The position numbers were made by a program, and so were the translations under genes. Of a DNA stretch of 26,077 bases, positions 1,834 to 19,425 are shown in pieces. The notes beneath the pieces were generated by a model, which saw only the letters and a program-made list of their open reading frames with translations, was not told where the DNA came from and ran no database searches. Every line of letters starts with the position of its first letter. Position 1 is the first letter of the stretch. The DNA is from a virus: positions 1-26,077 of the IMG/VR virus record IMGVR_UViG_3300027608_000132; one strand, given 5' to 3'.

Positions 1834-1834
1834 A

Positions 1835-2536: not shown

Positions 2537-3200
2537 AATTTTCTTTTTGATTATTTACATCTAATTTTACAAAATTAATACCTTTTAACCTACCATCTAC
2601 AAATCCAATATCTCCTGATGGGAATGAGTTAAAAGCTATACTAATCCTTGTGTAATCAGTATTTGAAGGGGGAACGCTGTGAGTTAAATTAGATGGGAAA
2701 AGAATAATATCACAAGTATCTATAAAAAAATTAACATCACTACAATTTAGCTCATCTTCATGTTGTGATTGTATTTGCCAATTTTGAGGATTATTTCTTT
2801 TTGAAAATGTAATTAAGTCATTCTCTTTTTTAGCATTAATATATATACATCCACTTACTAAACTATTGTGATGATAATGTTTATGATGAAATTGACCTTT
2901 ATCTGTATAATTTAACCAAGATTGTGTTATCTGTAAATTTACATTTTCAGGGTTAATTGGTTTATAAACTTTTATAAAATAATCATCTAAAGATTTTTGA
3001 CAATAATCTTTTATATCTTTTAAAATATCATTTTCAAATACATACATGTCATTTGTAGTAATATTACCTGTATTTTGTCTAACATTATTTCTGTAATCCA
3101 TAATACAATCCAATTCATCAGAATTGAATGGTCTAGGGAATTTATTTCGCATTACAGATGTTGGGAATATCGTTACTATTTCTCCTTGTTTATAATTCAT
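2526..3200 (-). CDS. 2OG-Fe(II) oxygenase, LFPT/PF13759-like, paralogue 3
   Basis: 224 residues. Motifs in order: IFPTSV (11-16), QSWLNYT (93-99), His108-Tyr-His110-His-Asn-Ser, SGCIYI, LFPSNLTH with distal His174, and Arg185. These are the expected iron and 2-oxoglutarate ligands of the PF13759-like family. The start codon overlaps the stop of the upstream glycosyltransferase gene (ATGA-type, 4 bases), so hydroxylase and glycosyltransferase are made from the same message. As for its sisters, the substrate is unknown; neighbouring glycosyltransferases suggest a hydroxylated residue or sugar that is then extended. Confidence 0.8.
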   Translation of the reverse strand: MNYKQGEIVTIFPTSVMRNKFPRPFNSDELDCIMDYRNNVRQNTGNITTNDMYVFENDILKDIKDYCQKSLDDYFIKVYKPINPENVNLQITQSWLNYTDKGQFHHKHYHHNSLVSGCIYINAKKENDLITFSKRNNPQNWQIQSQHEDELNCSDVNFFIDTCDIILFPSNLTHSVPPSNTDYTRISIAFNSFPSGDIGFVDGRLKGINFVKLDVNNQKENYGK

Positions 3201-4273
3201 ATATTTTGCTTTATTAAATCAATTACTTTTTGAGCACTTATTGATTTATGACATTCAAACTGTCTAGGAGTATCTTCATGCTCAGGGCAATAATTCCAAT
3301 CCCCTTTATTAAATCTAAACAATGGATTATGCCAACATCCATGGCAAACGGCCTCGTTTGTAATCCTAATAGTATTGTGGCTAAACTCATGGTCGGAATT
3401 GGTAAAATTAGCTATCATAAAGACCTTTTTACGCATAGCCCATGACAACCATCCAAGTCCGCTAGAAAGCCCAATAAAGAACTCAGAATGATGAATTACA
3501 TTCATTGTGTTTTCCATCGACCTATCTTTTAATAAGTCTATATTATTTAAGTCTAAAGTATCTTGATTTGAAATTTCAATTACTTTATATCCTTCTGAAA
3601 CTAGCCAATCTATTAATTCCTGCCAATAATACCAATATTTAAGCTGTGCAGTAGAATGTATTGAAATACAAACATATTTCTGCTCATAAGGCCTCTCTTT
3701 TGGGGTAAAATCCAAATTAGGTATCAATTCCTGATAGGGCAAATTAAGTATATTAGTTGCTGATTTCTGTAACGGAATCAATATAGGGTTTACAGGTTCT
3801 TTGTTAGTCTCCCAATACCAACCTAACTCAAACATAGCAACTATGTTATTTACAACCTCTCCTCTACCTACAAACTCTAATTCAGGGTATTGATTCTCAA
3901 AAAGGAAATTTTTAAAAGTTGATACAACTACTTTACATTGATAATACTTGGCAAATTCAGCACAGTAAGGCATCCAAGCTAAAGTGTCTCCTAAAGCTTT
4001 GCTCTCAAAAGATATGAATACTCTTTTACCTTTAATCTCATCTAAAAAGTTAATTTGCTTAATTACTCTTCCTTCATATTTAACCATTACGGCCACATCT
4101 GAGAGGTATTTTCTATCTAATCTAGCCCATGAACCTACTTTTAATTTAGTATCATATATGTTCTTAGACTCTTTCCTATCATAGAATATAATATCATATT
4201 CTCTATTTTTACCTTCGTCATCAGTAATTTCAAAGTAAAGTCCATTTACATGGTGGATGTTGTAAGTTATCAT
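3197..4273 (-). CDS. TibC/Aah-like protein O-glycosyltransferase
   Basis: 358 residues resembling the bacterial autotransporter heptosyltransferase family (TibC, Aah; GT9-related, GT-B fold). These enzymes attach heptose to hydroxyl residues of autotransporter repeat proteins. The sequence shows an N-terminal beta-rich region, then SKALGDTLAWMPY (residues 91-103) with the family's Gly-Asp, a nucleotide-sugar domain with SIHSTAQ and FIGLSSGLGWL (266-276), and a C-terminal cysteine cluster Cys310-x2-Cys313-x15-Cys329-x11-Cys341 followed by KSI. That four-cysteine cluster matches the iron-binding finger described for TibC. As a protein glycosyltransferase of repeat-rich surface proteins, it is the best candidate to modify the threonine-rich protein at 15466-19425; the pairing is inference. 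The sugar used cannot be told from sequence. Confidence 0.75.
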   Translation of the reverse strand: MITYNIHHVNGLYFEITDDEGKNREYDIIFYDRKESKNIYDTKLKVGSWARLDRKYLSDVAVMVKYEGRVIKQINFLDEIKGKRVFISFESKALGDTLAWMPYCAEFAKYYQCKVVVSTFKNFLFENQYPELEFVGRGEVVNNIVAMFELGWYWETNKEPVNPILIPLQKSATNILNLPYQELIPNLDFTPKERPYEQKYVCISIHSTAQLKYWYYWQELIDWLVSEGYKVIEISNQDTLDLNNIDLLKDRSMENTMNVIHHSEFFIGLSSGLGWLSWAMRKKVFMIANFTNSDHEFSHNTIRITNEAVCHGCWHNPLFRFNKGDWNYCPEHEDTPRQFECHKSISAQKVIDLIKQNI

Positions 4274-4275
4274 AA

Positions 4276-4806
4276 TTAAAATTCTGTGTTAAAAAAGAAT
4301 GTTTGAAATAATCTTCCTGTTTGTAAATCTCTACCAAAATAATCAAGAGAAGTATGATATAAGTCTCCTCTATATAAAATAAGTCTATTATATAGGTTTC
4401 CTATTCTATCTACAAGTTCCCATTGTGTCATATCATAAAAGTCTGCAGAAAAATGAGATATTTCTTTTGTTTTTTTCCTAAATAAACCTGTACCTCCTGA
4501 TAATGGAGCATCAGGTGTTAAATAGCAAACTCCTGCCCAATCTGTACCATCTACATGTAACCATGACCTATTTTCAGCAGTTGTATATTGAAAAGCCCCC
4601 GTATATTCATCTACTAGCCAAGTAATATTTCCTGATAATGGTTGAATAGTATCTTCTATAACTTTTTTGATATTATCATTTAAAAATGGTTTAGTTCTAA
4701 AACTAGGGAAGTTACCTTTGACTCCAAATTCTTGTGAAAGAGCAAATTCTCTAACTTCATCAACATTGTTATAGAAATCTGATATTATTACTGATTCTAC
4801 TCTCAT
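4276..4806 (-). CDS. DUF6445-like 2OG-Fe(II) oxygenase fold protein
   Basis: 176 residues. His84-Val-Asp86 in WLHVDGTDW, followed by GVCYLTPDAP, GGTGLF, NRLILYRGDLYH with His151, and Arg165 in GRLFQTFFF, give the His-x-Asp...His...Arg signature of 2OG-Fe(II) oxygenases. The pattern is that of the DUF6445 family, which I recall as a small family of unknown function with this fold. It sits between a GT4 gene and the TibC-like gene with gaps of two or three bases, so it belongs to the modification operon. Substrate unknown. It is clearly distinct from the other six dioxygenases, which argues for a different acceptor. Confidence 0.7.
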   Translation of the reverse strand: MRVESVIISDFYNNVDEVREFALSQEFGVKGNFPSFRTKPFLNDNIKKVIEDTIQPLSGNITWLVDEYTGAFQYTTAENRSWLHVDGTDWAGVCYLTPDAPLSGGTGLFRKKTKEISHFSADFYDMTQWELVDRIGNLYNRLILYRGDLYHTSLDYFGRDLQTGRLFQTFFFNTEF

Positions 4807-4809
4807 AAA

Positions 4810-5850
4810 TTAAATATTTTGATATACATTAACATATTTTTCTCTAATTCTATCTGAATCATAATTTTGAAATTGCTGTACTGCATTATATTTTTTTTCT
4901 AACTTTTTACATACATTTAACCAACTATATGAACCTCTCTCTTTAGCCATATTATCAATCATTCTTTCATAATCGTTCATAACAACATGAATACCTGCAA
5001 TTACATTACTAGTTGATAATTCATTTATTTTAACTAAACCTGCAATATCCTTACTTCCTTTATATGTAGCCACCATAGGCATACAAACACTAGCAGCCTC
5101 AAGTAAAGTCAAATTAGGATGTCCATATTCAAGATTAGATGGATGTAAGAAAATAGTATGGTCTTGAAAAATCTTTAACTTTTCTTGTTCATTTGGATTT
5201 GTGTCAATAACAGTCAATTTATCATATTGTAATAAATCTTTGTGTATTTCAAAAAATTTAGTATTAGCATCTGCACCAACTATAGTAATAGGAAGGTTTA
5301 ACATTTTAGCAGCTTCAATACCATATCTAAAACCCTTTCTGTCTGCTCCATAATCCCCTGCAACTCCATTGTTAGCACACATCAATAGCTTATGTACTAC
5401 GGGTTCATTTTTAACAGAATAAAATGCTTTAGTTGGTGTATAATAATTAATATCTACACCATGTGATAAATAAAATAACTTATCTGTATCATCAAAATAG
5501 TCAACTACATATTCAGCAGGAGCTAAAGAGAAAATAGATTTTTTCATTGCTTCCAATTGCTCTTTATAGTTGCTACTATTTTTACCATAATGGTAGCTAT
5601 GATGGTCATGTGTAGAATATACATACTCAATACCCCTTTTATGTGCTTCAATACAAAGGTTTGCCACATGTATATGAACTATGTCATACATTTTAGGTTG
5701 AACATTGTTTAAATATAATAAGTCTACTTCATTTCCTAGTATTCTAAAGTTTTTAGTATACTCATCCATAATTAATTCAGTTGCTCCCCATCCTCTTTGA
5801 CCTGTCGGTAAAATAGGCAAATTGCTACTTATAACTTGTGCTATTCTCAT
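4810..5850 (-). CDS. Glycosyltransferase, GT4-like (GT-B fold)
   Basis: 346 residues. The N-terminal MRIAQVIS and a Gly-rich loop (GQRGWGATE, 17-25) start the first Rossmann half. DIVHIHV and YSTHDHH mark the acceptor domain. DRKGF (170-174), ITIVGAD and FLHPSNLEYG...LLEAAS (234-254), with acidic residues Glu241 and Glu251, form the donor site typical of GT4 retaining transferases. It would move a sugar from a nucleotide donor to a glycan or protein in the cytoplasm. Its ATG overlaps the stop of the 901-residue transferase gene by four bases, so the two are probably coupled and may act in sequence. Sugar and acceptor unknown. Confidence 0.85.
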   Translation of the reverse strand: MRIAQVISSNLPILPTGQRGWGATELIMDEYTKNFRILGNEVDLLYLNNVQPKMYDIVHIHVANLCIEAHKRGIEYVYSTHDHHSYHYGKNSSNYKEQLEAMKKSIFSLAPAEYVVDYFDDTDKLFYLSHGVDINYYTPTKAFYSVKNEPVVHKLLMCANNGVAGDYGADRKGFRYGIEAAKMLNLPITIVGADANTKFFEIHKDLLQYDKLTVIDTNPNEQEKLKIFQDHTIFLHPSNLEYGHPNLTLLEAASVCMPMVATYKGSKDIAGLVKINELSTSNVIAGIHVVMNDYERMIDNMAKERGSYSWLNVCKKLEKKYNAVQQFQNYDSDRIREKYVNVYQNI

Positions 5851-8552
5851 ATAAATTTCTTTTCTTGTTTGTCAATTAATGAAAATCCTTCAGCTTGTGT
5901 TGTTAATCTATTATGTACGATACCAAACTTATGAGGACTACCATAAAAAATATGGTTAAAAAACATATCTGCGGCATCCCATTTTTCAGTTCTTAATCTT
6001 TCTAAAAGCCATTTTTTAACGCTTTTCGGAAAGCCAATACATTGTAGTCCAATAATATGGTCGGTAATAAATAATAAATCTTGGTCAGGAACAACTTCTC
6101 TAACAGGAGATTGTAACCAACCATGTTCCAATGTTTTTACATCCCCAAAAGACATATAACCTATTTTATTATCTTCTATTATTTGATAAGACTTTTCAAC
6201 TTTCTCTACAAATTCATGTATAGGCACTTCAATAATACAGTCCCCTTCGCAAACTATAAGAAAATCAATACTGTCATCAAATTCACTCATAATTCCATTT
6301 TTAAATGATTCGAAGCATCCGTAATGTGAAGGAGTAAGTGCGGTCCCCAATTCACGAACTTGCTCGTCATTGAAGAGGTCCATTGAAACGCAGTTTGGTC
6401 GTTGGCAGTTATACTTAGGTGGCAAGTCTCCATAGGGGATATTGGTGTGTAAGATATATTCCCACCCGTAGTTGGCCACATGCTTGAGGGATTCTCTACT
6501 TTTTTGTTCTCTTTCGTCATTTCTAGTTGTTTGTAAGTGAACTAATCTAATTTTAGGTTTTCTATTTTTAATCTTATAATGTCCTGTATGCTCGTATTTA
6601 TGAAGGGTTTTATCATTTAAAACATGTTTTTCATTTTTATATATTCTATCTCCATCATAAAAATCAAGCTCTACTTCAATTTCACGACCTTTGTATTCAA
6701 ATTCTTTTTTAAACTCTTTGCTTTTATCAATTTGCCATCTATATATAAAGAACTCTTGTCCTCCTTCACGCATCGTAATATTAACCTTTCTGCTATCTAC
6801 ATTGTAAGTAAAGAAATAGAACATATAGTTATTAGGCTTCCCTACAATAGGTATAATTGAATAATACTCAGAATTTGATGCTACACCTAATCCACTATGC
6901 TTTAAAAGGGTTTCTTCATCGTTATGCTCAATAAAATATTCTTTTTCTAGGCCTTTTAGTTTTTTAACTAAATAATCTTCAAGGAAGTTTTGAGCACCAA
7001 TATTTTGACAAATATTATTGTACTCTTCTGCAGTCCTTACATCATCAAAAGTATTTAAGAAAAAATCAACACTAAAAGCCATCCCATTCGTTTGTATACC
7101 TTTCCCAAAAGGAGTGTTCAAGCTACCTAGATAAGCCTTATACATGTATGGTTCTTTTGCATCAATATCAAATGCTTTCTCAATATTTGTTATATCCCTA
7201 GGGTCTAAAACAACATCATAAGTAGTATAAAAGAAAGCTTCATATCCTAATGCTTTGGCAGCTTTTGCTCCGTTAAATAGGTTTGTTAATACGGTTAACG
7301 ATTGATTGCTGTTTTTTAACCCATTAATGTTAATTTCAGCATGGTAGTCATCTGTAAATCTATAAAATCTTGTATAATATGAATGATGAGTCAATGGGTT
7401 ATGCTCATCGTATATATAGTAGTCAACCATTTTTTGAATATCTTCATCAACAGGGTAATGTGATAAAAGCATAATCTTTCTACCCAATGGCTTTAAGCTA
7501 TTAATAGTATCTTTTGTAAGTTGTACTCTGCTATCCAAATTAGGCCATGTACCCACAATAATGACTTCTCTTTTGTTATTAGTAGGTTTTGCTTGAGTCA
7601 GTTCTATAACTTTGTCAGCATCTTCAGTAAGATTACCTGTTAAATAATGAAAATCTTCATATCCGTTCCATCTGTTTAAATAAACATCTAGGTTATATAT
7701 TAGCTTAGGTATTTGCTTATACTCTGCAGCTTCTTTTATTACAATAGGGTTTAATTCCTTATTTCCTCGGTCTCCTTTAGAAGGAAAAAAGAAAAGGTCA
7801 GCCGCCCTAATAAAGTCCTCTGTATCGCTTCTTTCTCCCCAAATAACGCAGTTTTCGGGCTTATTATCCATCATTGGTTTCCAATAGCTCTCAAAATTAC
7901 CTGCTTGATTTCCTAAAAAGTGAAACTTTATTTTATAGTCTTTTAGCTTTTCTCCCATTTCAAAGCCGTATTTCTGATTCTTTCTAGGTGTAAATAAGCC
8001 TATTATTACCGCATGTTTGTAATCATGCTCAAGTCCTAATTTCTCTCTTGCAATCCTTTTATCTGAAGTTTTAGCATCAATTGGATATTCAATAATCTCT
8101 TGAGGTACATTTAAGTGGTCGTACTTCATCATATTATATGGGCTAACAAATACAAACTTGTCAGGCATCCATTTTTTGTTTATGGGGTTAAAACTGCTAT
8201 CATGCGTAGTTTCTACTATTTTCCAACTTCTTGTTTCTGAATATAAAAAGCTAGACATTTTATCATCCATGAACATTTCAGGAAACTCTTCCATAGATAC
8301 TACATCAGGATTAAAGCTGCACATTATATTCATAAACTCTGTAAGCTTGTCTTCTCCTAAAGAATAAAAGTTTTGTTCTCCAACTAAATCAATAATTCTA
8401 TTCCTTTGAACTACGAAGGCCCAAGCAACAAAAGCATGTTCAATAACTTTAATCTCAAAATCTTCTTTTATTAATGCAATTTTGTTTACTGTAACCTGTG
8501 GAGCTCCACCTGTACTTAAATGTGGCGTAATAATTAGTAGCTTTTTTTTCAT
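5847..8552 (-). CDS. Three-domain glycosyltransferase (GT4-like + GT-A-like + GT25-like)
   Basis: 901 residues. Residues 1 to about 325 are GT4-like: N-terminal IITPHLSTGGAP, FTPRKNQ (187-193), HFLGN, and FFFPSKG...ELNPIVIKEAAE with Glu266 and Glu274. Residues about 328-575 form a second domain with IIVGTWPN, LLSHYP and FYTTYDVVLDP (acidic 446-450), compatible with a GT-A fold, but I cannot name its family. Residues about 660-901 begin RLVHLQTTRND and contain TPSHYGCFES (740-749) and VCEGDC (767-772). This order resembles GT25 enzymes, the family of procollagen galactosyltransferases and LPS galactosyltransferases. A fused enzyme could add two or three successive sugars. GC content rises locally to 46% in the third domain (6301-6480). 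The gene overlaps both neighbours by four bases. Confidence 0.75.
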   Translation of the reverse strand: MKKKLLIITPHLSTGGAPQVTVNKIALIKEDFEIKVIEHAFVAWAFVVQRNRIIDLVGEQNFYSLGEDKLTEFMNIMCSFNPDVVSMEEFPEMFMDDKMSSFLYSETRSWKIVETTHDSSFNPINKKWMPDKFVFVSPYNMMKYDHLNVPQEIIEYPIDAKTSDKRIAREKLGLEHDYKHAVIIGLFTPRKNQKYGFEMGEKLKDYKIKFHFLGNQAGNFESYWKPMMDNKPENCVIWGERSDTEDFIRAADLFFFPSKGDRGNKELNPIVIKEAAEYKQIPKLIYNLDVYLNRWNGYEDFHYLTGNLTEDADKVIELTQAKPTNNKREVIIVGTWPNLDSRVQLTKDTINSLKPLGRKIMLLSHYPVDEDIQKMVDYYIYDEHNPLTHHSYYTRFYRFTDDYHAEININGLKNSNQSLTVLTNLFNGAKAAKALGYEAFFYTTYDVVLDPRDITNIEKAFDIDAKEPYMYKAYLGSLNTPFGKGIQTNGMAFSVDFFLNTFDDVRTAEEYNNICQNIGAQNFLEDYLVKKLKGLEKEYFIEHNDEETLLKHSGLGVASNSEYYSIIPIVGKPNNYMFYFFTYNVDSRKVNITMREGGQEFFIYRWQIDKSKEFKKEFEYKGREIEVELDFYDGDRIYKNEKHVLNDKTLHKYEHTGHYKIKNRKPKIRLVHLQTTRNDEREQKSRESLKHVANYGWEYILHTNIPYGDLPPKYNCQRPNCVSMDLFNDEQVRELGTALTPSHYGCFESFKNGIMSEFDDSIDFLIVCEGDCIIEVPIHEFVEKVEKSYQIIEDNKIGYMSFGDVKTLEHGWLQSPVREVVPDQDLLFITDHIIGLQCIGFPKSVKKWLLERLRTEKWDAADMFFNHIFYGSPHKFGIVHNRLTTQAEGFSLIDKQEKKFI

Positions 8553-9490
8553 ATCATTTCTATTAATTTATCTAATACTTGTTTTACTGATGGATGACAT
8601 TCGTAACTTTCTTTCTTTTCACAGCATCCTATTAATGGTTGTACACCTTGTATGTTTCCCCATGTTTCAACACCATATTTCATGTTAGATGCACATTCTA
8701 GTCCACATCCACCTCTTACATATTGATATTTATAATCTTGTCTATTGTCTCTATAAGGTATTCTAAATTGAGGTTTTATTGATGAGCCTAAATGTATAAT
8801 TGGGACATCTGTGGTACCTGCTAAGTGCAATAATCCGCTATCCATAGTTACAAATGCAGCAGCATTAATCATAAGGTGCCAACAATCAGAAATGCTTGTT
8901 TTATTCATTAAATTTAAACCTTTTTCAATCTCGAAATTAAACACAGGTTTTTGAACATTAAAAAATCCTGTTTCAGAAGAATCCTTTCCAATAGATACTA
9001 CATTGTAGCCCTTATCATTTAATTGTTTTGTTAAATTCATCCAATTTTCAGCAGACCAAGTTCTTGAAGGCCATGTGCTTACAGGATGTATTAAGATATA
9101 AGGTTTTTTAGGTATTTCAAAAGAACATTCTTCAGTAGGTATATAAAAACATTCCATTTCATCATTACCAAGCATAAACCCAAGATTGATAGCATGAAAT
9201 TGTCTAATATCTATTGTATTATGTTTATATTCAACACCTCTTTCGTTCTTTTTACCAACATTGTAAAATGAGTTATGTACTATGTAATTATTTTCAATAT
9301 ATCCCATATCAACGCTAGAAGATTTTATACTTCTTTCCACATAAGGATTATTTTTAAAAACTTCAGGCATTTTTGAAATGACTAATATTTTTGTATCATA
9401 AGCTTCACTTATTTTTTTAATAGTAGGAGTTGCACATATTAAGTCCCCTAATCCATTACATTCAGTCAATTCTAAACATATATTTTTCAT
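8549..9490 (-). CDS. Glycosyltransferase, GT9/heptosyltransferase-like
   Basis: 313 residues. CNGLGDLICATP (11-22) is the N-terminal glycine loop and Asp of GT9 heptosyltransferase-like enzymes. ILIHPVSTWPSRTW (132-145) and MDSGLLHLAGT (216-226) are the matching C-terminal donor-binding motifs. The C-terminal third carries extra cysteines (262, 266, 289, 290, 298), which may form a metal site as in the TibC branch, although the spacing differs. Thus two GT9-superfamily proteins occur in one operon. The gene abuts the upstream oxygenase gene and overlaps the 901-residue gene by four bases. Whether it uses ADP-heptose or another donor is open; no heptose biosynthesis gene lies in the window. 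Confidence 0.8.
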   Translation of the reverse strand: MKNICLELTECNGLGDLICATPTIKKISEAYDTKILVISKMPEVFKNNPYVERSIKSSSVDMGYIENNYIVHNSFYNVGKKNERGVEYKHNTIDIRQFHAINLGFMLGNDEMECFYIPTEECSFEIPKKPYILIHPVSTWPSRTWSAENWMNLTKQLNDKGYNVVSIGKDSSETGFFNVQKPVFNFEIEKGLNLMNKTSISDCWHLMINAAAFVTMDSGLLHLAGTTDVPIIHLGSSIKPQFRIPYRDNRQDYKYQYVRGGCGLECASNMKYGVETWGNIQGVQPLIGCCEKKESYECHPSVKQVLDKLIEMI

Positions 9491-10138
9491 TTATATAATT
9501 TTTTCTGTATCATAATTTGGGTCATCCCAAAACTTGTTTGGATTAAATTCTTGAGAAAAGTTTGTAGTTAATACCCATCTTTTTTCATTTGATTGATTTA
9601 ATTGAGTTCTATGTCTAAGCCATGCAGGGAATATTAAAACATCTCCTGATATTGTAGGTATTTGTTTCCACATCCACATAGGGTCATCATAATAATATTC
9701 TCCTTTAACATATTCAAGAGGGTCTTTACATTCAAAAAATCCACCATTCTCAGGCATGTTCAAATAAGAAGCAGCTACCATAAAAGTATTTGAATGATTA
9801 TGAGCTGTAGTTATACCATCTTTTTCATGTACATTAACCCAACTATTTTTTATTCTATAATCATGAAAGTTGTTTGAATATCCCATACCCTTTGTCGCAA
9901 CTTCTGTAACCATAAATTTTAACCAATCAAAATATGGTGTAAATTCTTTAATTTTATGAGGTTGTCTTTTATTTTGATGAGAAGTATGTCCATTAACAAC
10001 TAATGATAATCCTTTTGGAGTTGTTGAAATTAATTCATGACAAATTGGAGCTAATAAATCCCAATCAAATTCATAATGTAGTTTATACATATAGCTTGAA
10101 TGTGGACTTAAAACGGATACTTGATTATTTTCTTTCAT
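9491..10138 (-). CDS. 2OG-Fe(II) oxygenase-like protein, long member of a paralogous pair
   Basis: 215 residues. His113-Asn-His115-Ser precedes VAASYLNMP and NGGFFECKDPLEY. GDVLIFPAWLRHRTQ supplies distal His176, and Arg187 lies in RWVLTTNFS. The order is that of 2OG-Fe(II) oxygenases with a His-x-His first motif. The N-terminal YKLHYEFDW and FTPYFDWLK segments are shared with the next gene, so the two arose by duplication. It has an internal extension (residues about 40-60) and a C-terminal extension relative to its partner. It abuts the GT9 gene. Substrate unknown; the setting suggests modification of a protein or glycan that is later glycosylated or sulfated. Confidence 0.75.
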   Translation of the reverse strand: MKENNQVSVLSPHSSYMYKLHYEFDWDLLAPICHELISTTPKGLSLVVNGHTSHQNKRQPHKIKEFTPYFDWLKFMVTEVATKGMGYSNNFHDYRIKNSWVNVHEKDGITTAHNHSNTFMVAASYLNMPENGGFFECKDPLEYVKGEYYYDDPMWMWKQIPTISGDVLIFPAWLRHRTQLNQSNEKRWVLTTNFSQEFNPNKFWDDPNYDTEKII

Positions 10139-10146
10139 AAACTAAA

Positions 10147-10710
10147 TTAAAATTTGTGAGAAAAATTTGTAGTTAATACCCATCTATCCTCATTTGATAT
10201 ATTAGGCTGTGTTCTGTGTTGAAGCCATGAAGGAAAGACCAATACATCATTTGTTTTTGTAGGTAAAGTACTCCAAATATTTTCGTTACTAATTGGCAAA
10301 TTAGATTTGTGATATTCTAAAGGGTCTTTAGCTTGAAAATAACCACCATTATCGGGCATGTATAAATAAGCAGCTACCACAATAGAATTACAAGCATGAT
10401 TATGTTCATTAGCTTGAGCATTACTTTTATGAACATTTACATAACTATCGGTAATATAATATTTCATTTGATATTCATTAAAAGCCATTTTGATATTAGC
10501 TAAATTATCAACCCATGGCTTCAACCAATCATAATATGGTTTAAAGTCTTTTATATAATGAGGTTTAGCAAAGTTTTTTTGTGATGTAGAACGAGCACCT
10601 TCATCCACAATAATATCTTCACATATTGGTTTCAAAATATTCCAATCAAATTCAAAATTTAGTTTAAATATGAAGGGCCTAAATGGATTAATTATTTCAG
10701 CAGATTGCAT
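10147..10710 (-). CDS. 2OG-Fe(II) oxygenase-like protein, short member of a paralogous pair
   Basis: 187 residues. Shared with the neighbour at 9491-10138: FKLNFEFDW, FKPYYDWLKP, VNVH, His103-Asn-His105, YMPDNGGYF, AKDPLEY, VFPSWLQHRTQ with distal His165, and RWVLTTNFS with Arg176. All predicted iron and 2-oxoglutarate ligands are retained, so both copies should be active. Its start codon lies inside the end of the sulfotransferase gene (14-base overlap), placing it second in the operon. It was probably duplicated in place, with an eight-base gap between the copies. Confidence 0.75.
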   Translation of the reverse strand: MQSAEIINPFRPFIFKLNFEFDWNILKPICEDIIVDEGARSTSQKNFAKPHYIKDFKPYYDWLKPWVDNLANIKMAFNEYQMKYYITDSYVNVHKSNAQANEHNHACNSIVVAAYLYMPDNGGYFQAKDPLEYHKSNLPISNENIWSTLPTKTNDVLVFPSWLQHRTQPNISNEDRWVLTTNFSHKF

Positions 10711-11518
10711 AATTAAATTTTTTAAAGTACCATAGATGATTTTTATATATCCAATTACAAGCCTCTTTGCCTATTATTTCTTCGGCTTTTGTTTCATTTA
10801 CAGAGACTTTGCTTTTTATTTTATGACTAGCAAAGTGTAACATGTCGTTTTCTATAGTTGTTTTTTTTACTGATTTGAAATCATGTAAAAAATAAGGAAT
10901 TTTTAAAAAGTCGTAAATTCTTTTGATTTCACTTTCAGGAGATATACAAAATTCTTCATACTTTATAAATAGCATTTTGCTATCATTACCCCAATTAATA
11001 ATTTCTTTTAATCTTTCTAAGTTTAGAGCTAAAGGCGGTTTAGTTGACCATTCCACAATTCTTTTCTCCATAGTTGTATTTTTTAATTCATTCCAATCTA
11101 TGTGAGAGTTTATTTTCAAAAAATCATTTCTATAGTTTTTTTCAAAAGATGCAAAAATGTCTCTTAAATCTCTTACCATAAATATAATCTTAGGGGCCTC
11201 ATTATTGATTTGAACTAAATAATCGTAGAAATACCCCCAAGAGAAGTTTTTGTCAACATAATAAGGCTTGTTTGTAATATTAGCAGCATAGGCTTTTAAT
11301 CCTTCTTTACAAAAACTAGTAAATGCTTTTTTTAAGATTTGTTCTTGAGAAGGGTGCTGATATTGCAAGTTCATTAAGAACTCATTTTTTGCTGAAACTA
11401 TTATTTCAGTCAAAGCTCCCATAGAAGGGGCATAAATATCATTATTCTGTGCAAGGATATTCTGTAAAAGAGTCGCCCCTGAACGAGGGAGGGATGAATT
11501 ATAGAAAATCTTTTGCAT
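10697..11518 (-). CDS. Sulfotransferase (PAPS-dependent)
   Basis: 273 residues. The start LPRSGATLLQNIL (10-22) is the 5'-phosphosulfate-binding loop of PAPS-dependent sulfotransferases, where Arg12 and Ser13 replace the usual Lys/Ser/Thr set seen in other branches. IIFMVRDLRDIFASF (111-125) is the 3'-phosphate-binding segment with Arg116 and Ser124. LFIKYEEF is a further conserved strand. The enzyme moves sulfate from PAPS to a hydroxyl or amine on a sugar or protein. It is first in the minus-strand operon, with ATG behind AATAACC, and is divergently arranged to an APS kinase gene that would supply PAPS. Acceptor unknown; a glycan on a virion protein is the favoured guess, tyrosine or another residue is possible. 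Confidence 0.8.
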   Translation of the reverse strand: MQKIFYNSSLPRSGATLLQNILAQNNDIYAPSMGALTEIIVSAKNEFLMNLQYQHPSQEQILKKAFTSFCKEGLKAYAANITNKPYYVDKNFSWGYFYDYLVQINNEAPKIIFMVRDLRDIFASFEKNYRNDFLKINSHIDWNELKNTTMEKRIVEWSTKPPLALNLERLKEIINWGNDSKMLFIKYEEFCISPESEIKRIYDFLKIPYFLHDFKSVKKTTIENDMLHFASHKIKSKVSVNETKAEEIIGKEACNWIYKNHLWYFKKFNYAIC

Positions 11519-11588
11519 GGTTATTTTTATTTTATAAAATTAATGTATTTTCTACATATTTTGTATATTTACAATCTAAAATATTTTT
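11519..11588. promoter_or_regulatory. Divergent intergenic region between sulfotransferase operon and DUF6165/APS kinase genes
   Basis: These 70 AT-rich bases separate two diverging gene sets, so they must hold or border both promoters. On the plus strand TTTACAATCTAAAA lies shortly before the DUF6165 start; a related AATCTAAAA element recurs before 12507 and 19656. On the minus strand the sulfotransferase ATG follows AATAACC. I could not find an exact copy of the Bacteroidota TAnnTTTG -7 box. Confidence 0.5.
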
Positions 11589-11966
11589 ATGATAATTGAA
11601 ATTAGCATCGGAGAAGCATTTGACAGACTTACCATCCTCAAAATTAAATCAGAAAAGATTAAAGATGAGGCCAAACTGACGAATGTCATGAAAGAGTACT
11701 ATTATCTGCAAAACCTCATGAAGGATGAATTAGAAGTAGATGAGGATAATGAAGATTTTAAAAGATTGTTGGAAATCAATGAAACTTTATGGGGAGTAGA
11801 GGATTTATTGAGAGAATTTGAACAAGCAAACTCTTTTGGAGAAGAATTTGTACATTTAGCTAGGTCTGTTTATGTACTAAATGATAAAAGAGCAATAGCT
11901 AAAAAAGAGATAAATATGGGCTACGGGAGTCAATTTGTAGAGGAGAAATCTTATAACCAACTGTAA
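11589..11966 (+). CDS. DUF6165-like protein
   Basis: 125 residues. The opening EISIGEAFDRLTILKIKSEKI, the central LLEINETLWGVEDLLR and the final LARSVYVLNDKRA, EINMGYGS and EEKSY match my recollection of DUF6165, a small helical family usually encoded inside lipopolysaccharide or capsule glycosyltransferase clusters. Its biochemical role is unknown. Charged and mostly helical, it lacks membrane segments. It leads a plus-strand unit with the APS kinase six bases downstream, divergent to the sulfotransferase operon, which fits an accessory role in glycan assembly. Confidence 0.65.
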   Translation: MIIEISIGEAFDRLTILKIKSEKIKDEAKLTNVMKEYYYLQNLMKDELEVDEDNEDFKRLLEINETLWGVEDLLREFEQANSFGEEFVHLARSVYVLNDKRAIAKKEINMGYGSQFVEEKSYNQL

Positions 11967-11972
11967 ATCAAT

Positions 11973-12428
11973 ATGATAGTAGTTTTTTATGGCCAACCTA
12001 GCTCAGGCAAGACTACCTTAGCTAAATTACTCCAAGAAAAGATTTTTTTACAAAATCAACCAACCCCTGTTATCATAGATGGGGATGAAATTCGTGCTAT
12101 TTTTAAAGATACTGACTATTCAAAAGAAGGTCGAACAAATAACCTAAGAAGGATTAGTGATATAGCAACTTTTTTAGAAAGTAAGTATAACTTAGTGATT
12201 ATCAGTGCAGTATATCCTTATCAAGAAGCTAGACAATACTTAGATAGTATATGCAATAATGTGCTTTGGGTTCATTTATTCAATGTTGATTTTAGAGAAA
12301 AGCAAGAATTTCATGTAAAAGATTTTGACCTCCCTTATTTTGAAGCTAGAAAGAATTGTTCTATAAATACTACAAATTTTACTCCTGAAATGTGTATTGA
12401 GAGAATATTAGATTATATGTCTTTATAA
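11973..12428 (+). CDS. cysC: Adenylylsulfate (APS) kinase
   Basis: 151 residues. Walker A loop GQPSSGKTT (7-15), then DGDEIR (36-41), then the APS-kinase signature EGRTNNLRRI with Arg54, Asn57 and Arg59, and VYPYQEAR (80-87). These are in the order of CysC, which phosphorylates adenylylsulfate to PAPS with ATP. At 151 residues it is somewhat shorter than typical stand-alone CysC, yet all motifs are present. It needs APS, so the host must supply ATP sulfurylase (none in this window). PAPS is the donor of the sulfotransferase encoded across the divergent promoter, which argues for a role in sulfation rather than sulfate assimilation. A related small P-loop kinase remains possible. Confidence 0.75.
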   Translation: MIVVFYGQPSSGKTTLAKLLQEKIFLQNQPTPVIIDGDEIRAIFKDTDYSKEGRTNNLRRISDIATFLESKYNLVIISAVYPYQEARQYLDSICNNVLWVHLFNVDFREKQEFHVKDFDLPYFEARKNCSINTTNFTPEMCIERILDYMSL

Positions 12429-12809: not shown

Positions 12810-13237
12810 TACCTAAAGGAGACCCTAAAGCAATAAATCCTATTCAAAAGATATTTTCTGATGGGGACTTAAAAAAAATAGGTACTGCACAAACAATTGG
12901 ACAGTTTGCTGAAATAGGGGCTGCTTTGGCAGGGGGTTTTGCTGCTTTAAATGATGCTAAAAAAGCTCAACAGTTTCAAAACTATTTGTCTAATCTTAGC
13001 GATGACCAACAACAAGCTTTGATTAATTCAATAGAAAAAGCAAAAACAGAGGAAGAGACTTATAGAATTATTGCTGCTGTTATACAAAATGCACAATCAA
13101 AAAGGGTTGAAAACCTTGCAGGTGTGATAGTTAAACAAGAGCAAATAAATAGAAATATTAGAATAGAGAAAATAGTTATTATATCATTATTAGGTTTATT
13201 AGCTATAGGTTTAATTTATTCAAGAAAAAAAGATTAA
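12806..13237 (+). CDS. Tail-anchored membrane protein, paralogue of the 13740 gene
   Basis: 143 residues with an Ala/Gly-rich N-terminal part (GAALAGGFAAL), a long charged helix with LSDDQQQALINSIEKA, and a C-terminal membrane segment (about 122-138, IVIISLLGLLAIGLIYS) ending in RKKD. Its second half aligns by eye with the protein at 13740-14090 (LS.L..DQ...L, then KA, RV, I...E..N, LLG). Function not recognised. Start overlaps the previous stop (ATGA) and its stop overlaps the next start (TAATG), so it is part of a coupled set. Confidence 0.7.
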   Translation: MIPKGDPKAINPIQKIFSDGDLKKIGTAQTIGQFAEIGAALAGGFAALNDAKKAQQFQNYLSNLSDDQQQALINSIEKAKTEEETYRIIAAVIQNAQSKRVENLAGVIVKQEQINRNIRIEKIVIISLLGLLAIGLIYSRKKD

Positions 13238-13737
13238 TGCAAAACGAAACCATAAAAAGAGAAAATGACCAAAGGATTGATGAATTAGAGGCTGCAATAG
13301 TTGATAATTTGGAATTAATAGAATGTCCCGTAGTACATAGATTTACAGATGGAATGTACATAAGGGAAATATCTATGCCAAAAGGTTCTTTGCTAACTAG
13401 CAAAATTCATAATTCTAATCATCCATACACTATTTCGAAAGGAGTAGCCTTGGTACAAATTGATGCGGGAGAATGGATTGAGTTAGCGGCCCCTTATACG
13501 GGTATAACTTTAGCGGGAACTAGAAGAGTTTTATTTATTGAAGAAGATTGTATTTGGACAACATATCATCCATTAGAAGATATGAAATTGACTTACAATG
13601 ATTTGACTGAAGAAGAAAAACAAAACATAGTAGATGAAATTGAAAATGAAATAATAGAACCGCATGTGAATTATCTTACAGGTACTAATATTCATTTAGA
13701 TTATAAAGAAAAGATTGATAAAAATAAAATTGGATAA
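13237..13737 (+). CDS. Cupin-like phage protein
   Basis: 166 residues. After an N-terminal helix comes a beta-rich domain: HRFTDGMYIREISMPKGS, LTSKIHNSNHPYTISKG, LVQIDAGEW, AGTRRVLF, DCIWTTYHP. His58, His62 and His111 stand where cupins often hold a metal ion. Such cupin-like proteins recur in tailed phage genomes next to virion genes, and no activity is established. It is set between the two paralogous tail-anchored proteins, two bases from the next start. An enzymatic role (isomerase or dioxygenase on a sugar) is possible in this neighbourhood but not shown. Confidence 0.6.
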   Translation: MQNETIKRENDQRIDELEAAIVDNLELIECPVVHRFTDGMYIREISMPKGSLLTSKIHNSNHPYTISKGVALVQIDAGEWIELAAPYTGITLAGTRRVLFIEEDCIWTTYHPLEDMKLTYNDLTEEEKQNIVDEIENEIIEPHVNYLTGTNIHLDYKEKIDKNKIG

Positions 13738-14794: not shown

Positions 14795-15466
14795 ATGGCA
14801 CAAGAACAACCATTAGCATTAACGAAGGAACAATTACTGCAATTTCAGATAGTGAATAATACAAATTTCCCTATCCCTAATGTGCCGTTTCTAACAGCTA
14901 ATGTTACTTTTAATTCTACTACTCAATATCAATGGGCTTTACCTCCTAATCTTAATATACCAACAGTAATTACACCTGTAGTAACGATTTTGACTACACC
15001 TGCTTTACAAGCAGTCGTTCCTATTGATATTGATACAGCTTTTTCGCCTACTTATGCGGCAATAACTGAATCTATTTCAACTAATAATTATGGAACTAAT
15101 TTCTTTTATGCTCAATCATCAAATTGTGCTCAAGTTGCTCAAGTAAATACTTATATTGATAGTGATATTGCAGGTAATGCAACAGTTATAGCTTTACCAT
15201 TTACTTTAGACCCATATCAATCACAATGTGTTGTTTACTACTATCCGCCTGAGAATCTAGTTACTTTTAATGGAACAAGTTCATTAAATTTCACTATGCT
15301 TGAAAATACTACATTGAATTTAAAAGTATTTTCTAGTAGTACTTCTCCTTCACAAATATTAGATGAAATTTCAGGATATAAAGACAATGCTTTTACAGAA
15401 GTTGAACAAGCATTAGGGACAGATGTATTTACCGATTATTGTAACTATTTAATTGATACCGAATAA
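14795..15466 (+). CDS. Hypothetical virion-like protein upstream of the mucin-like protein
   Basis: 223 residues, rich in Thr, Asn, Gln and Pro with few charges, a composition typical of beta-sandwich structural proteins. No signal peptide or membrane segment. Many Asn-Thr/Ser pairs and Thr-rich strands are seen (for example ANVTFNSTTQY). Its stop shares a base with the start of the 1319-residue gene (TAATG), so the two are probably translated together and may form one structure. It could be a virion protein or the base of a fibre made by the next gene. Family not recognised. Confidence 0.55.
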   Translation: MAQEQPLALTKEQLLQFQIVNNTNFPIPNVPFLTANVTFNSTTQYQWALPPNLNIPTVITPVVTILTTPALQAVVPIDIDTAFSPTYAAITESISTNNYGTNFFYAQSSNCAQVAQVNTYIDSDIAGNATVIALPFTLDPYQSQCVVYYYPPENLVTFNGTSSLNFTMLENTTLNLKVFSSSTSPSQILDEISGYKDNAFTEVEQALGTDVFTDYCNYLIDTE

Positions 15467-18400
15467 TGCCAAGTTTTACTATTAATGTTAATGGGGAAAA
15501 TTATACCGTAGGCTACGATGGAACATTCGATAGCCCACAGGGATTAATTCCTGCATTAAATAATTTAGGCTATGGTATTTTTTGGATAGAACAAATTGGT
15601 GGCGTAAATGTATTGACAACTGTAGACGATGATGATGTATGGGGTACTGCTGAAACTAATTCAGACCCAACTACAACTAGTACTACGACTACTACAACAA
15701 CAGAAGCTCCTACAACTAGTACTACGACTACTACAACAACAGAAGCTCCTACAACTAGTACTACGACTACTACAACAACAGAAGCTCCTACAACTAGTAC
15801 TACGACTACTACAACAACAGAAGCTCCTACTACAAGTACGACAACAACTACAACAACAGAAGCTCCTACTACAAGTACGACAACAACTACAACAACAGAA
15901 GCTCCTACTACAAGTACGACAACAACTACTACAACAGAAGCTCCTACTACAAGTACGACAACAACTACAACTACTATTTGTGCAAATTACATTAATAGTA
16001 TCATTATTTCTGATGGCTCATATACTCCTGCGAATGGAACTTATACAAGAGATAATCCTTCAGCAGCTTTTTCACTAGTTGGTGGAAATGGTGCTATATT
16101 CTTTGGTGGAGATGCTTGGTATATTTTTAATGCTGCAATTGGAAATGCTGCTAGAAATACTTCTGAATTAGGTACAGGAACTTGGGAACCTTGGCCTCCT
16201 GCATCTTCAACAGGAATTACTGCGGTGTATTCTAGTTATATTTGTCCAACAACAACTTCAACTACAACAACTACTACAACATTATTTGCTCAAACAGTTA
16301 ATTATGCAAGTAATGCCACAGATGCTTGTTTAAATCCAACGGGAACTCAAAATGTAACAGGTAACTCTACTGATTTTTGTACTTGTACAATATTTAACTC
16401 AGCAGGTTTTGTAACACTATCTGATGGTAACTATGTATTAGCTTTTAGTGGAAACACTTTAAATATAAATATTTCAGGATTCCCTACTACAACTGCAACT
16501 GTTACGGGTGGTGGATGTACTACATGTCCTTTAAGCACCTCTACTACGACTACAAGTACTACCCTTCAACAAGTATGGTATCAATTAACAAATTGTAATG
16601 GTGGTGGTACTGTATATACAACAAATTATGATATTGGATATGCTGCCGTAACAGACAGGGTATTTGGTACAGTTTTAGGAGTGCCATCAACATTAGTGGT
16701 AACTAGTGTATTATTTAGCGACCCTGCAGGAACTCAAATTGGTATTGTTAATTCAGGTTTGACAGGATGCCCTGCAACTACATCAACTACTACCACTACT
16801 ACAACATTACCTCCTGTAACTTTAGATTTAACAGCTACATGTACAGGTCTTACTCAAACTATAACAATAGATAATTTTGCAGGTGGAGATGGAACTACAT
16901 ATTATGCAAACGATACAACTTATGATAATCCTGCATTAGCAGCAGGTGGTGCTACAAGTATAATTGTTGGTGGAACAAGAACTTATACAACACAACCTAA
17001 TGGAACAAGATATATTTATGTATTTAGTTCAACTAGAAATACAGTTAAACAAGGCGGACAAATTGATTGTGTAAGTACTACTACTACAACTACTACTACA
17101 ACTCAACCTCCTTATGTATATTATGTTGCAACAAGATGTGATGTCCCACTATTAGAACAATATTTTAGAACAACAGGTTCATATACTGCAGGAGAATCTG
17201 TTAGATATAATGGATATTGTTGGGAAATTCAAGCGGTACAAGGAGCATCAGGAGTAGACCCTGACAGTTCATATATTAATTGTGCAGCTTGTAATGGAGC
17301 ATTTCCTACTACAACTACCTCAACGACTACTACATCTACAACAGAACCTCCTGTAACTGCTAGTATCAGCTCAGTTTGTACAGGAATTACTCAAACAATA
17401 ACAGTTGATACCTTTGGTGGTGGAGATGGAACAACTTATTTTGCAAATGATACAACTTATGGAGACCCTGTTAGTGCTGCTGCAGGAGCTACAAGTATAA
17501 TTGTTGGTGGAACAAGAACTTATACAACACAACCTAACGGAACGAGATATGTTTATATAACATCAGGAACTAGAAATGATATTAAGCAAGGTGGTCTAAC
17601 TTGTACAACGACAACAAGTTCTACAACCACTACTACTACATTAGCGGGTGTACAATTTGGAGTTTCTATTACAACAAAATATGCAACTGATTATTTAGCT
17701 TGTACAGGTACAGTTACAGGAGTGATATATCAAAAAGCTGAATTTGGAAACACTCCTACTGTTGGAGCTCAATTATATACATCTTCAACGACAGGTTCAG
17801 GAACAGAGTGGACACCTTCTGCAGGTATAGGTCTTTACTTAATGCAATTTGGTGGAAGCACTAAATGGTCTGTGTTAGTTGGTACTACGGGTATTATAAA
17901 TACAGTTACAAGTTGTGCAGGTGTAAGCACAACAACTACTACTACCACATTACCTGCTATTACTGTTACAGCGACACCTTCATGTGATGGGTCAGGATTA
18001 AGTGGTCAAGGTAGAGTTACTGCAAACTTTAGTGGAGGTACAAGTTCTTACACATGGGCAGCCATTGCAAGTTCAGAGGCTAATGCAATAGCGTGTGTGA
18101 ATAATCCTTCTTGTCCTGAAAGAGTTACAGTTGCAGGTTCATCAAGTTATGCTTTCACTTCTTTAGCGAATGGACCTTATTATGTAGCTGTTTTAGATAG
18201 TAATGGTAGTTTAGGCTATTCAGGTTTAGCAACTGTTTCTTGTAACGCAACTACAACTACAACTACAACAAGTTCTACAACCACTACTACTACATTAGCG
18301 GGTGTACAATTTGGAGTTTCTATTACAACGAAATATGCAACTGATTTCTTAGCATGTACAGGTACAGTTACAGGAGTAGTATATCAAAAAGCTGAATTTG

Positions 18401-19425
18401 GAAATACTCCTACTGTTGCAGCTCAATTATATACATCTTCAACAACAGGTTCAGGAACTGAGTGGACACCTTCTGCAGGAATAGGTCTTTATTTAATGCA
18501 ATTTGGTGGCAGTACTAAATGGTCTGTGTTAGTTGGTACTACAGGCATTATCAATACAGTTACAAGTTGTGCAGGTGTAAGTACTACAACTACAACTACC
18601 ACATTACCTGCTATTACGGTTACAGCAACGCCTTCATGTGATGGGTCAGGATTTAGTGGTCAGGGTAGGGTTACTGCAAACTTTAGTGGAGGTACAGGTT
18701 CTTACACTTTTGCAGCCATTGGAACTTCAGAGGCTGCTGCAATAGCGTGTGTGAATAATCCTTCTTGTCCTCAAAGAGTTACAGTTGCAGGTTCATCAAG
18801 TTATGCTTTCACTTCTTTAGCTAATGGTCCTTACTATGTAGCTGTTTTAGATAGTAATGGTAGTTTAGGCTATTCAGGTTTAGCAACTGTTTCTTGTAAT
18901 GCTACAACAACTACTACAACATCAACAACTACAACGACAACAACTGAGCCTATTGTCAATTATTATGTTGCAACAAGATGTGATGACCCATTAATTGAAC
19001 AATACTTCAATACAACAGGTTCATATAGTGTAGGTACTTCACTTAAATATGGTGGATATTGTTGGGAAGTTCAATCAATAGCAGAATTATCAGGAGTAGT
19101 AGCTGATAGTGCATACATTGATTGTGCATCTTGTAATGCCTCAAATCCTACTACAAGTACTACAACTACTACAACTACTGCTGCTCCTCCTGCATACGAT
19201 TTTTATAACGCTGATGTATATGATTGTAACGATTGTTCTGCTTCAATTGATACAATATTAGTAGCATTTGATGCAGGTACAAATGTAACTTTGAATAGAT
19301 GGTACAATGCTCAAGCAGGTCCTGATGGTAATTCATATAGAGTAACTTCTGTTGGAGATGCAGGGATAGCTTACTTATTAGCATTACCTTCATATAACAG
19401 TTGTGCATTAGCGTGTTTTGTTTAA
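15466..19425 (+). CDS. Mucin-like modular protein with threonine tracts
   Basis: 1319 residues, the largest gene here. A 65-residue N-terminal domain leads into a tract of about 100 residues made of 13-residue Thr-rich units ending in Glu-Ala-Pro. Then come about twelve modules of 60-110 residues, mostly beta-rich and each with two or more Cys, separated by tracts of 6-14 mainly Thr/Ser. Module types recur: starts near 16810 and 17347 form one pair; near 17107 and 18949 another; and a two-module block starting at 17641 is repeated 654 bases later. No signal peptide, no membrane segment. The plan, stiff Thr tracts between small globular domains, is that of an extended fibre and of mucin-like proteins that carry O-glycans. 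Phage fibre or decoration protein is the likely role. The nearby glycosyltransferases, sulfotransferase and hydroxylases make it a candidate acceptor; this is inference. Confidence 0.75.
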   Translation: MPSFTINVNGENYTVGYDGTFDSPQGLIPALNNLGYGIFWIEQIGGVNVLTTVDDDDVWGTAETNSDPTTTSTTTTTTTEAPTTSTTTTTTTEAPTTSTTTTTTTEAPTTSTTTTTTTEAPTTSTTTTTTTEAPTTSTTTTTTTEAPTTSTTTTTTTEAPTTSTTTTTTTICANYINSIIISDGSYTPANGTYTRDNPSAAFSLVGGNGAIFFGGDAWYIFNAAIGNAARNTSELGTGTWEPWPPASSTGITAVYSSYICPTTTSTTTTTTTLFAQTVNYASNATDACLNPTGTQNVTGNSTDFCTCTIFNSAGFVTLSDGNYVLAFSGNTLNINISGFPTTTATVTGGGCTTCPLSTSTTTTSTTLQQVWYQLTNCNGGGTVYTTNYDIGYAAVTDRVFGTVLGVPSTLVVTSVLFSDPAGTQIGIVNSGLTGCPATTSTTTTTTTLPPVTLDLTATCTGLTQTITIDNFAGGDGTTYYANDTTYDNPALAAGGATSIIVGGTRTYTTQPNGTRYIYVFSSTRNTVKQGGQIDCVSTTTTTTTTTQPPYVYYVATRCDVPLLEQYFRTTGSYTAGESVRYNGYCWEIQAVQGASGVDPDSSYINCAACNGAFPTTTTSTTTTSTTEPPVTASISSVCTGITQTITVDTFGGGDGTTYFANDTTYGDPVSAAAGATSIIVGGTRTYTTQPNGTRYVYITSGTRNDIKQGGLTCTTTTSSTTTTTTLAGVQFGVSITTKYATDYLACTGTVTGVIYQKAEFGNTPTVGAQLYTSSTTGSGTEWTPSAGIGLYLMQFGGSTKWSVLVGTTGIINTVTSCAGVSTTTTTTTLPAITVTATPSCDGSGLSGQGRVTANFSGGTSSYTWAAIASSEANAIACVNNPSCPERVTVAGSSSYAFTSLANGPYYVAVLDSNGSLGYSGLATVSCNATTTTTTTSSTTTTTTLAGVQFGVSITTKYATDFLACTGTVTGVVYQKAEFGNTPTVAAQLYTSSTTGSGTEWTPSAGIGLYLMQFGGSTKWSVLVGTTGIINTVTSCAGVSTTTTTTTLPAITVTATPSCDGSGFSGQGRVTANFSGGTGSYTFAAIGTSEAAAIACVNNPSCPQRVTVAGSSSYAFTSLANGPYYVAVLDSNGSLGYSGLATVSCNATTTTTTSTTTTTTTEPIVNYYVATRCDDPLIEQYFNTTGSYSVGTSLKYGGYCWEVQSIAELSGVVADSAYIDCASCNASNPTTSTTTTTTTAAPPAYDFYNADVYDCNDCSASIDTILVAFDAGTNVTLNRWYNAQAGPDGNSYRVTSVGDAGIAYLLALPSYNSCALACFV
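15673..15975 (+). repeat. 39-base tandem repeat coding Thr-rich 13-residue units
   Basis: Seven full units and a partial eighth, each coding TTSTTTTTTTEAP. Units 1-4 (15673-15828) use one set of synonymous codons beginning ACAACTAGTACT. Units 5-7 (15829-15945) use another, beginning ACTACAAGTACG. The partial eighth (from 15946) follows the second set. Unit length is a multiple of three, so gain or loss of units keeps the frame. Confidence 0.95.
17641..18903 (+). repeat. 654-base internal tandem duplication
   Basis: The block starting TTAGCGGGTGTACAATTTGG at 17641 recurs at 18295. Each copy codes two modules (AGVQFGVSI... and PAITVTATPSCDG...) plus Thr linkers. The copies differ at scattered, mostly synonymous positions, with a few amino-acid changes such as YLACTG to FLACTG and SGLSG to SGFSG. 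Confidence 0.9.

Follow-up and report, generated by a model that had tools for sequence, protein, structure and literature searches.

A sulfotransferase and a short-lid APS kinase linked in aquatic phages: probable halves of a phage sulfation pathway with a candidate minimal ATP sulfurylase

Introduction

Why would a phage carry, almost side by side, a gene for an enzyme that may consume 3'-phosphoadenosine 5'-phosphosulfate (PAPS) and a gene for one that may produce it? The question is raised by IMG/VR virus record IMGVR_UViG_3300027608_000132, a linear record of 26,077 bp that was analyzed in its entirety (the window) and that holds a sulfotransferase gene, S, close to the gene of a small kinase, K, related to adenosine 5'-phosphosulfate (APS) kinases. 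APS kinases phosphorylate APS at the 3'-OH to yield PAPS. Because its relatives extend to 84 kb, the record is probably a phage genome fragment. A sequence-only reading of the locus had proposed that the two genes diverge from one intergenic region and sulfate a phage product, with APS supplied by the ATP sulfurylase of the host. According to the analysis presented here, S and K are the using and making halves of a phage sulfation pathway whose gene set is dispersed in the window's lineage and includes a candidate minimal ATP sulfurylase, termed N; we assign this reading a probability of about 0.78.

Both types of gene have been reported before, separately. In the available excerpts of the papers concerned, phage 'cysC' genes, which like K encode APS kinase homologs and are common in aquatic samples, are interpreted in terms of assimilatory sulfate reduction, without a link to sulfotransferases (PMC10914622, PMC9529941, PMC8190135). 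What phage sulfotransferases do has been described as unclear (PMC10580990); those of marine cyanophages and OM43 phages (S-SRM01 and others) belong to PF13469 as S does, but are about 22–28% identical to S, and an APS kinase partner was not found for them in a collection of 50,697 isolate phage records. A literature search that covered few subscription journals and no preprints returned no paper connecting a phage sulfotransferase with an APS kinase.

Results and Discussion

The sulfotransferase and the kinase

Both open reading frames of the sequence-only reading are present, together with a third gene that it had overlooked:

10697-11518, minus strand: S, PAPS-type sulfotransferase by sequence, 273 amino acids (PF13469 Sulfotransfer_3, PF00685, phrog_27463)
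11519-11588, between the divergent genes: A+T-rich intergenic region of 70 bp, presumed two-way promoter (conservation in relatives)
11589-11966, plus strand: DUF6165 protein, 125 amino acids (PF19662, E=1.7e-10)
11973-12428, plus strand: K, putative short-lid APS kinase, 151 amino acids (PF01583, AlphaFold model, motif alignment)

The 70 bp formerly thought to separate S from the kinase gene in fact separate it from the DUF6165 gene, which is followed after 6 bp by K, whose start lies 454 bp from S. The divergent arrangement as such is real and is retained in the related loci L002-L009, but it is DUF6165 and not K that borders the gap. In an alignment of seven relatives including L010 and L012, the 70-bp region has a mean column identity of 91%; in L010 and L012 the gene on its left is a 2-oxoglutarate (2OG) oxygenase instead of S, with the region still highly conserved. 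Matches to consensus promoters within the region were no more numerous than in shuffled sequences.

Profile searches assign S to the PAPS-type sulfotransferases, with matches to PF13469 (E=2.6e-14; 54.5 bits, above the gathering cut-off of 27), PF00685 (Sulfotransfer_1; E=1.4e-12) and phrog_27463 (E=3e-30). The 5'-phosphosulfate (PSB) loop, SLPRSGATL, is conserved in the alignment of the S family (10 sequences), and in the 3'-phosphate motif, VRDLRDIFAS, R116 and S124 are invariant, which bears out the earlier assignment; judged by sequence profiles, there was no sign of a non-sulfotransferase fold. A search of the PDB with the single S sequence gave no match, relatives emerging with the family profile only: the closest solved structures are protein-tyrosine sulfotransferases (TPST1/2-type Sulfotransfer_3 enzymes; 9wp1, E=4.5e-10). 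As this match runs mostly through the PAPS-binding parts, the target of S cannot be read from it. Glu38 is invariant in S, yet offset from the Glu pair of TPST in the profile alignment spanning these parts, and any likeness to the TPST substrate site is putative.

K is, with high probability, an APS kinase. It matches PF01583 (APS_kinase) with E=7e-17 and 62.3 bits versus a gathering cut-off of 21.1, over profile positions 4-99 of 152 only, and APS kinases are the nearest solved chains by sequence. Its AlphaFold model (pLDDT 91.4) superimposes best on 7yq1, an APS kinase in complex with AMP-PNP and APS (Z=22.0, root-mean-square deviation 1.6 Å, 147 aligned residues); APS kinases fill the first 27 places among the PDB entries (Z from 22.0 to 18.4), followed by gluconate kinase (Z=18.0). 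By profile as well as by predicted fold, the best match is thus an APS kinase and not an unrelated P-loop family, in agreement with the family first proposed. K shares with CysC (PF01583; TIGR00455; PDB 7yq1 and 1m7g) the fold, the P-loop, DGDxxR and the motif Ser-x-x-[DG]-Arg-x-x-Asn. These elements, including Ser, Arg and Asn of FSxxDRxxN, as well as a Pro and a later Arg, are kept in K, Salmonella CysC and other short kinases; P-loop, DGDxxR and the Arg and Asn of FSxxDRxxN are invariant in an alignment of Salmonella CysC with nine short kinases, and R54 and N57 across 80 kinase sequences. The differences from canonical CysC concern length (151 versus about 175–200 amino acids), the FTGIDxxYE region, which reads FHVKDFxxP in K, and the lid (KGLYKKARxGE region): aligned with Salmonella CysC, K has a deletion of about 14 residues at KGLYKKAR and a smaller one after the lid. 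Since K also stays below the cut-off of the NCBIfam apsK equivalog TIGR00455 (57.8 versus 138.7 bits), we refer to it as a short-lid APS kinase rather than a strict CysC.

Linkage of S and K across viral loci

The S-K pairing recurs in many aquatic phages, frequently as part of a larger set that includes N, a nucleotidyltransferase of 112–154 amino acids with the HIGH motif (PF01467), and D, a DUF2061 protein. Viral contigs were seeded separately with K, S and N, the last restricted to the best-matching 80, and distinct loci were counted. Starting from S, K was present within 3 kb in 54 of 60 loci and N in 37 of 60. K lay downstream on the same strand in 45 of these loci, 27 of which show an exact 4-bp S/K overlap of the type found in translationally coupled genes, and upstream in nine, including six with K on the other strand. 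Seeding with K (58 loci) retrieved N in 47, D in 34 and S in 25; seeding with N retrieved K within 3 kb in 59 of 59. N adjoins K in most loci or is fused to it (L043, L065 and the cellular L139). Gene order varies, from S>K>N>D, S>D>K and S>D>N>K to K>N preceding S and the divergent layout seen in the window clade. The earlier suggestion that the two genes form a pair in phages thus holds for many different phage genomes, and it is very likely, if slightly less so than the identity of K itself, that S and K cooperate through PAPS.

Pfam models revealed Sulfotransfer_2 and Sulfotransfer_4 genes beside K or N in other phages; a search of K-N loci with the S profile for weak or motif-only sulfotransferases found none. 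A search of the phage records with PF19798 gave no match and is uninformative, its control likewise matching nowhere. In L335 (768-3081), K, Sulfotransfer_2, Sulfotransfer_4 and a GT25-like protein are encoded consecutively on one strand of a single phage. The DUF6165 gene adjoins K throughout the window clade, and elsewhere it stands near a sulfotransferase gene in 17 of 83 loci (for example L193:11009-11404). Among the isolate phages, the window K gave weak matches only, the nearest relatives of S were distant cyanophage or single-cell virus proteins (22–28% identity), and the S-K pair was not found in any of the records.

The window's own lineage

While L010-L012 retain DUF6165-K, another gene occupies the position of S; in two of the three cases (G001 and G003) S is found elsewhere in the same record. 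A 68-kb record, G005, shares 97% nucleotide identity with the window over 13.6 kb and carries N (4510-4884) overlapping D (4790-5062), about 57 kb from K; the same N-D pair is present in the 84-kb record G003. The K tree places the window clade as sister to L220, a locus with K in an S-D-N-K group, and puts both within a supported clade of phage kinases accompanied by S. The N-D pairs of G005 and G003 and the sister position of L220 make it very probable that the N and D genes of the window's phage lie beyond the 26-kb fragment. The notion that the pair stands away from sulfate-assimilation genes therefore applies inside the fragment only, and a need for host ATP sulfurylase no longer follows, given that a candidate APS-making enzyme and the DUF2061 protein are encoded in the near-identical genome.

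N as a candidate ATP sulfurylase

Among the conserved columns of N are the motifs GRxQxxHxGH and ISxTxxR, invariant or nearly so. Three N proteins scored 23.1–33.8 bits against PF01467 (cut-off 21), and that of L140 fell below the cut-off with 19.5. The closest family is NadM, yet with 29.8–41.8 bits N stays far from the cut-off of the NadM equivalog TIGR01527 (181.2), aligns with NadM only in the N-terminal part and the STxxR motif, and is shorter by about 50 residues. Against the ATP sulfurylase profile PF01747, N gave no match at E<0.01, and its fold match to ATP sulfurylase is weak (Foldseek E=0.04).

The argument for a role in sulfate activation comes from cells. We found 47 bacterial and archaeal loci with K, in which CysD and CysN were named by TIGR02039 and TIGR02034: CysD and/or CysN stand beside K in 28 and N in 13, with no locus having both. 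A Sulfotransfer_5 gene accompanies 9 of the 13 N loci. Whole-genome searches of the 13 K+N genomes yielded CysD in none and a PF01747 ATP sulfurylase in one, leaving 12 of 13 with no known ATP sulfurylase, whereas CysD was present in all five K+cysDN genomes searched. D accompanies K in phages and in cells, where it goes with the cysDN loci. Considering this mutual exclusion of N and cysDN, and that K+N genomes mostly have no known ATP sulfurylase, N is most simply explained as a replacement for that enzyme. That N indeed makes APS we regard as an even chance. The same odds apply to the wider proposal that N represents a third, minimal kind of ATP sulfurylase of about 115 residues, derived from NadM, and that phages as well as some marine bacteria and archaea devoid of CysDN or Sat hold a complete pathway from ATP and sulfate via APS and PAPS to a sulfated product in a few compact genes; carriers of N include marine Marinimicrobia and Group III archaea. 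Should N prove to make APS, this would add a previously unknown, very small enzyme to those that start sulfate activation. The K-N fusions recall the PAPS synthetases (Aquifex 2gks, human PAPSS1), in which APS kinase is fused to ATP sulfurylase; the partner differs, being a NadM-like HIGH-family protein with a putative substrate instead of a PF01747 enzyme.

Many cysDN operons of Flavobacteriales encode the short APS kinase fused to a domain of the haloacid dehalogenase (HAD) hydrolase type, giving proteins of 266–268 amino acids (L097:4294-5094; likewise L098-L103, L105, L108, L109, L115, L123 and L134). The hydrolase part might recycle 3'-phosphoadenosine phosphate.

Proposed pathway and alternatives

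We infer a pathway in which enzyme activities, the substrate of N, the sulfated target and the purpose are all read from gene identity and context. N would most likely make APS from ATP and sulfate, freeing the phage from host ATP sulfurylase; K would phosphorylate APS at the 3'-OH to PAPS; and S would transfer the sulfate of PAPS onto something that the phage itself makes, the likeliest target being a tail-fiber-region glycan or protein built by the neighboring glycosyltransferases and hydroxylases. In many phages S, K, N and D form one operon; in the window lineage the set has been split, with S and DUF6165-K read apart and N-D some 57 kb from K in G005. The purpose might be a change in surface chemistry of the virion or the infected cell, for example in adsorption or protection.

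Several observations weigh against this pathway. A recognizable sulfotransferase gene within 5 kb is absent from 70 of the 107 K- or N-seeded loci, most of them on short contigs, and also from 20 of the 34 such loci flanked by at least 4 kb on both sides; some K-N loci of this kind sit in records of more than 100 kb. The uniformity of the S-rich K clade is partly one of choice, as it was sampled largely through S. K has no canonical lid and misses the apsK equivalog threshold, and the window fragment itself lacks N and D. Regarding N, its closer kinship to NMN adenylyltransferase than to ATP sulfurylase speaks against the activity assigned here; the K+N genomes are metagenome-assembled and single-amplified genomes, perhaps incomplete; and the exclusion of N and cysDN follows lineage, cysD changing once on the K tree.

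K and N could alternatively serve a different pathway of adenylyl transfer followed by 3'-phosphorylation, such as NAD salvage, coenzyme A synthesis or ADP-ribose chemistry, with S merely traveling along. Coenzyme A synthesis follows this logic, with phosphopantetheine adenylyltransferase (PPAT) acting before dephospho-CoA kinase, and the sequence and fold of N come closest to those of NadM and PPAT; moreover, many K-N phages have no recognized sulfotransferase, and diverged K-N fusions of Casjensviridae lie near MazG, in Bhz60 adjoining a NADAR gene. Still, profile and fold alike place K closest to APS kinases, whose aligned residues it retains, the K family takes the place of CysC in cysDN operons, DUF2061 and sulfotransferases travel with K, and the NadM likeness is confined to the parts of the shorter N described above. 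In the fusions of isolate phages the conserved Asn is gone, and they may belong to a separate branch. We consider this alternative unlikely as a general explanation, although, in view of such diverged fusions, some near MazG or NADAR, certain phages may employ K-N for another purpose. The fusions in question come from Xanthomonas/Stenotrophomonas isolate phages (AhaSv, L250:5578-6324; Bhz60, L251:5584-6324; DLP_6, L252:4590-5321), are annotated as hypothetical or kinase, and lie near MazG in AhaSv and Bhz60. As a separate observation, the K-N loci L055:2524-2799, L061:2503-3369 and L081:6156-7387 are found among DUF3310, DNA methylase-like and DHH phosphoesterase genes, not among tail genes.

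Somewhat less probable still is the usual published reading of phage cysC as an auxiliary gene of sulfur assimilation (PMC10914622, PMC9529941, PMC8190135), according to which the kinase would increase the PAPS that the host reduces to sulfite and cysteine, and the sulfotransferase would be an unrelated neighbor. The position of cellular short kinases in cysDN operons is in line with it. We nevertheless disfavor this reading because genes of the PAPS reductase/CysD family were found in 0 of 45 phage records; in addition, 54 of the 60 loci seeded with S have the kinase linked to it, the two genes often overlapping at their ends, and further sulfotransferase families stand beside the kinase elsewhere. 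The role of phage 'cysC' genes may thus be the decoration of phage products and not the feeding of sulfur metabolism. Judging from how tightly the genes are linked, many aquatic phages seem to sulfate a product of their own, which would alter the ecological counting of phage 'sulfur metabolism' genes, and would indicate sulfated virion glycans or proteins. To our knowledge, there is no phage example of such a sulfated virion surface chemistry.

It is very improbable that K is a cytidine diphosphoramidate kinase like Cj1415, the CysC-like protein of a surface-polysaccharide locus that acts in the Campylobacter methyl phosphoramidate pathway and not on APS. This precedent, the location of K among glycosyltransferases and its PRK05541-type match lend the idea some appeal, but partner genes of that pathway were not recognized in the window, the constant partner of K is a sulfotransferase, and the K family has a cysDN context. 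Least probable of all, mere chance neighborhood in a mosaic genome was rejected: S and K do lie on opposite strands with DUF6165 between them, and S is not beside K in L010-L012, but K accompanies S within 3 kb in 54 of 60 loci in several gene orders, and where S was lost from the spot it persists in the same record in two of three cases.

Surroundings and possible sulfation target

The genes flanking S and K in the window are the following:

3197-9490, minus strand: glycosyltransferases (GT9, GT4-like) and DUF6445, in the leftward unit with S (PF01075, E=2.5e-19 and 1.2e-5; PF00534, E about 2e-5, below cut-off; PF20043)
9491-10138, minus strand: second 2OG-Fe(II) oxygenase of the leftward unit of S (PF13759, E=6.9e-15)
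10147-10710, minus strand: 2OG-Fe(II) oxygenase downstream of S, its start overlapping the S end by 14 bp (PF13759, E=6.7e-11)
13237-13737, plus strand: short-tail-fiber-like protein downstream of K (phrog_12032, E=3e-28)
15466-19425, plus strand: 1319-amino-acid protein with long Thr-rich TTTTTTTEAPTTS runs, downstream of the tail-fiber genes (translation)

GT2 and GT25 enzymes, several 2OG oxygenases and tail-fiber genes are also encoded in the window, and S-K loci elsewhere adjoin GT9 enzymes, Peptidase_S74 tail fibers and tail sheath genes. Because glycosyltransferases, oxygenases and tail-fiber genes surround S-K, a sulfated surface glycan or protein comes to mind, and the odds that S acts on a virion or surface glycan or protein appear about balanced. 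The leftward glycosyltransferases would be the putative builders of the glycan to be sulfated. The 1319-residue protein had no Pfam match; mucin-like and a candidate for O-glycosylation, it may be a virion protein that carries glycans or sulfate. The number of 2OG-Fe(II) oxygenases is unusually high (607-3200 and 9491-10710), with four confirmed by Pfam and two similar proteins at 1835-3200.

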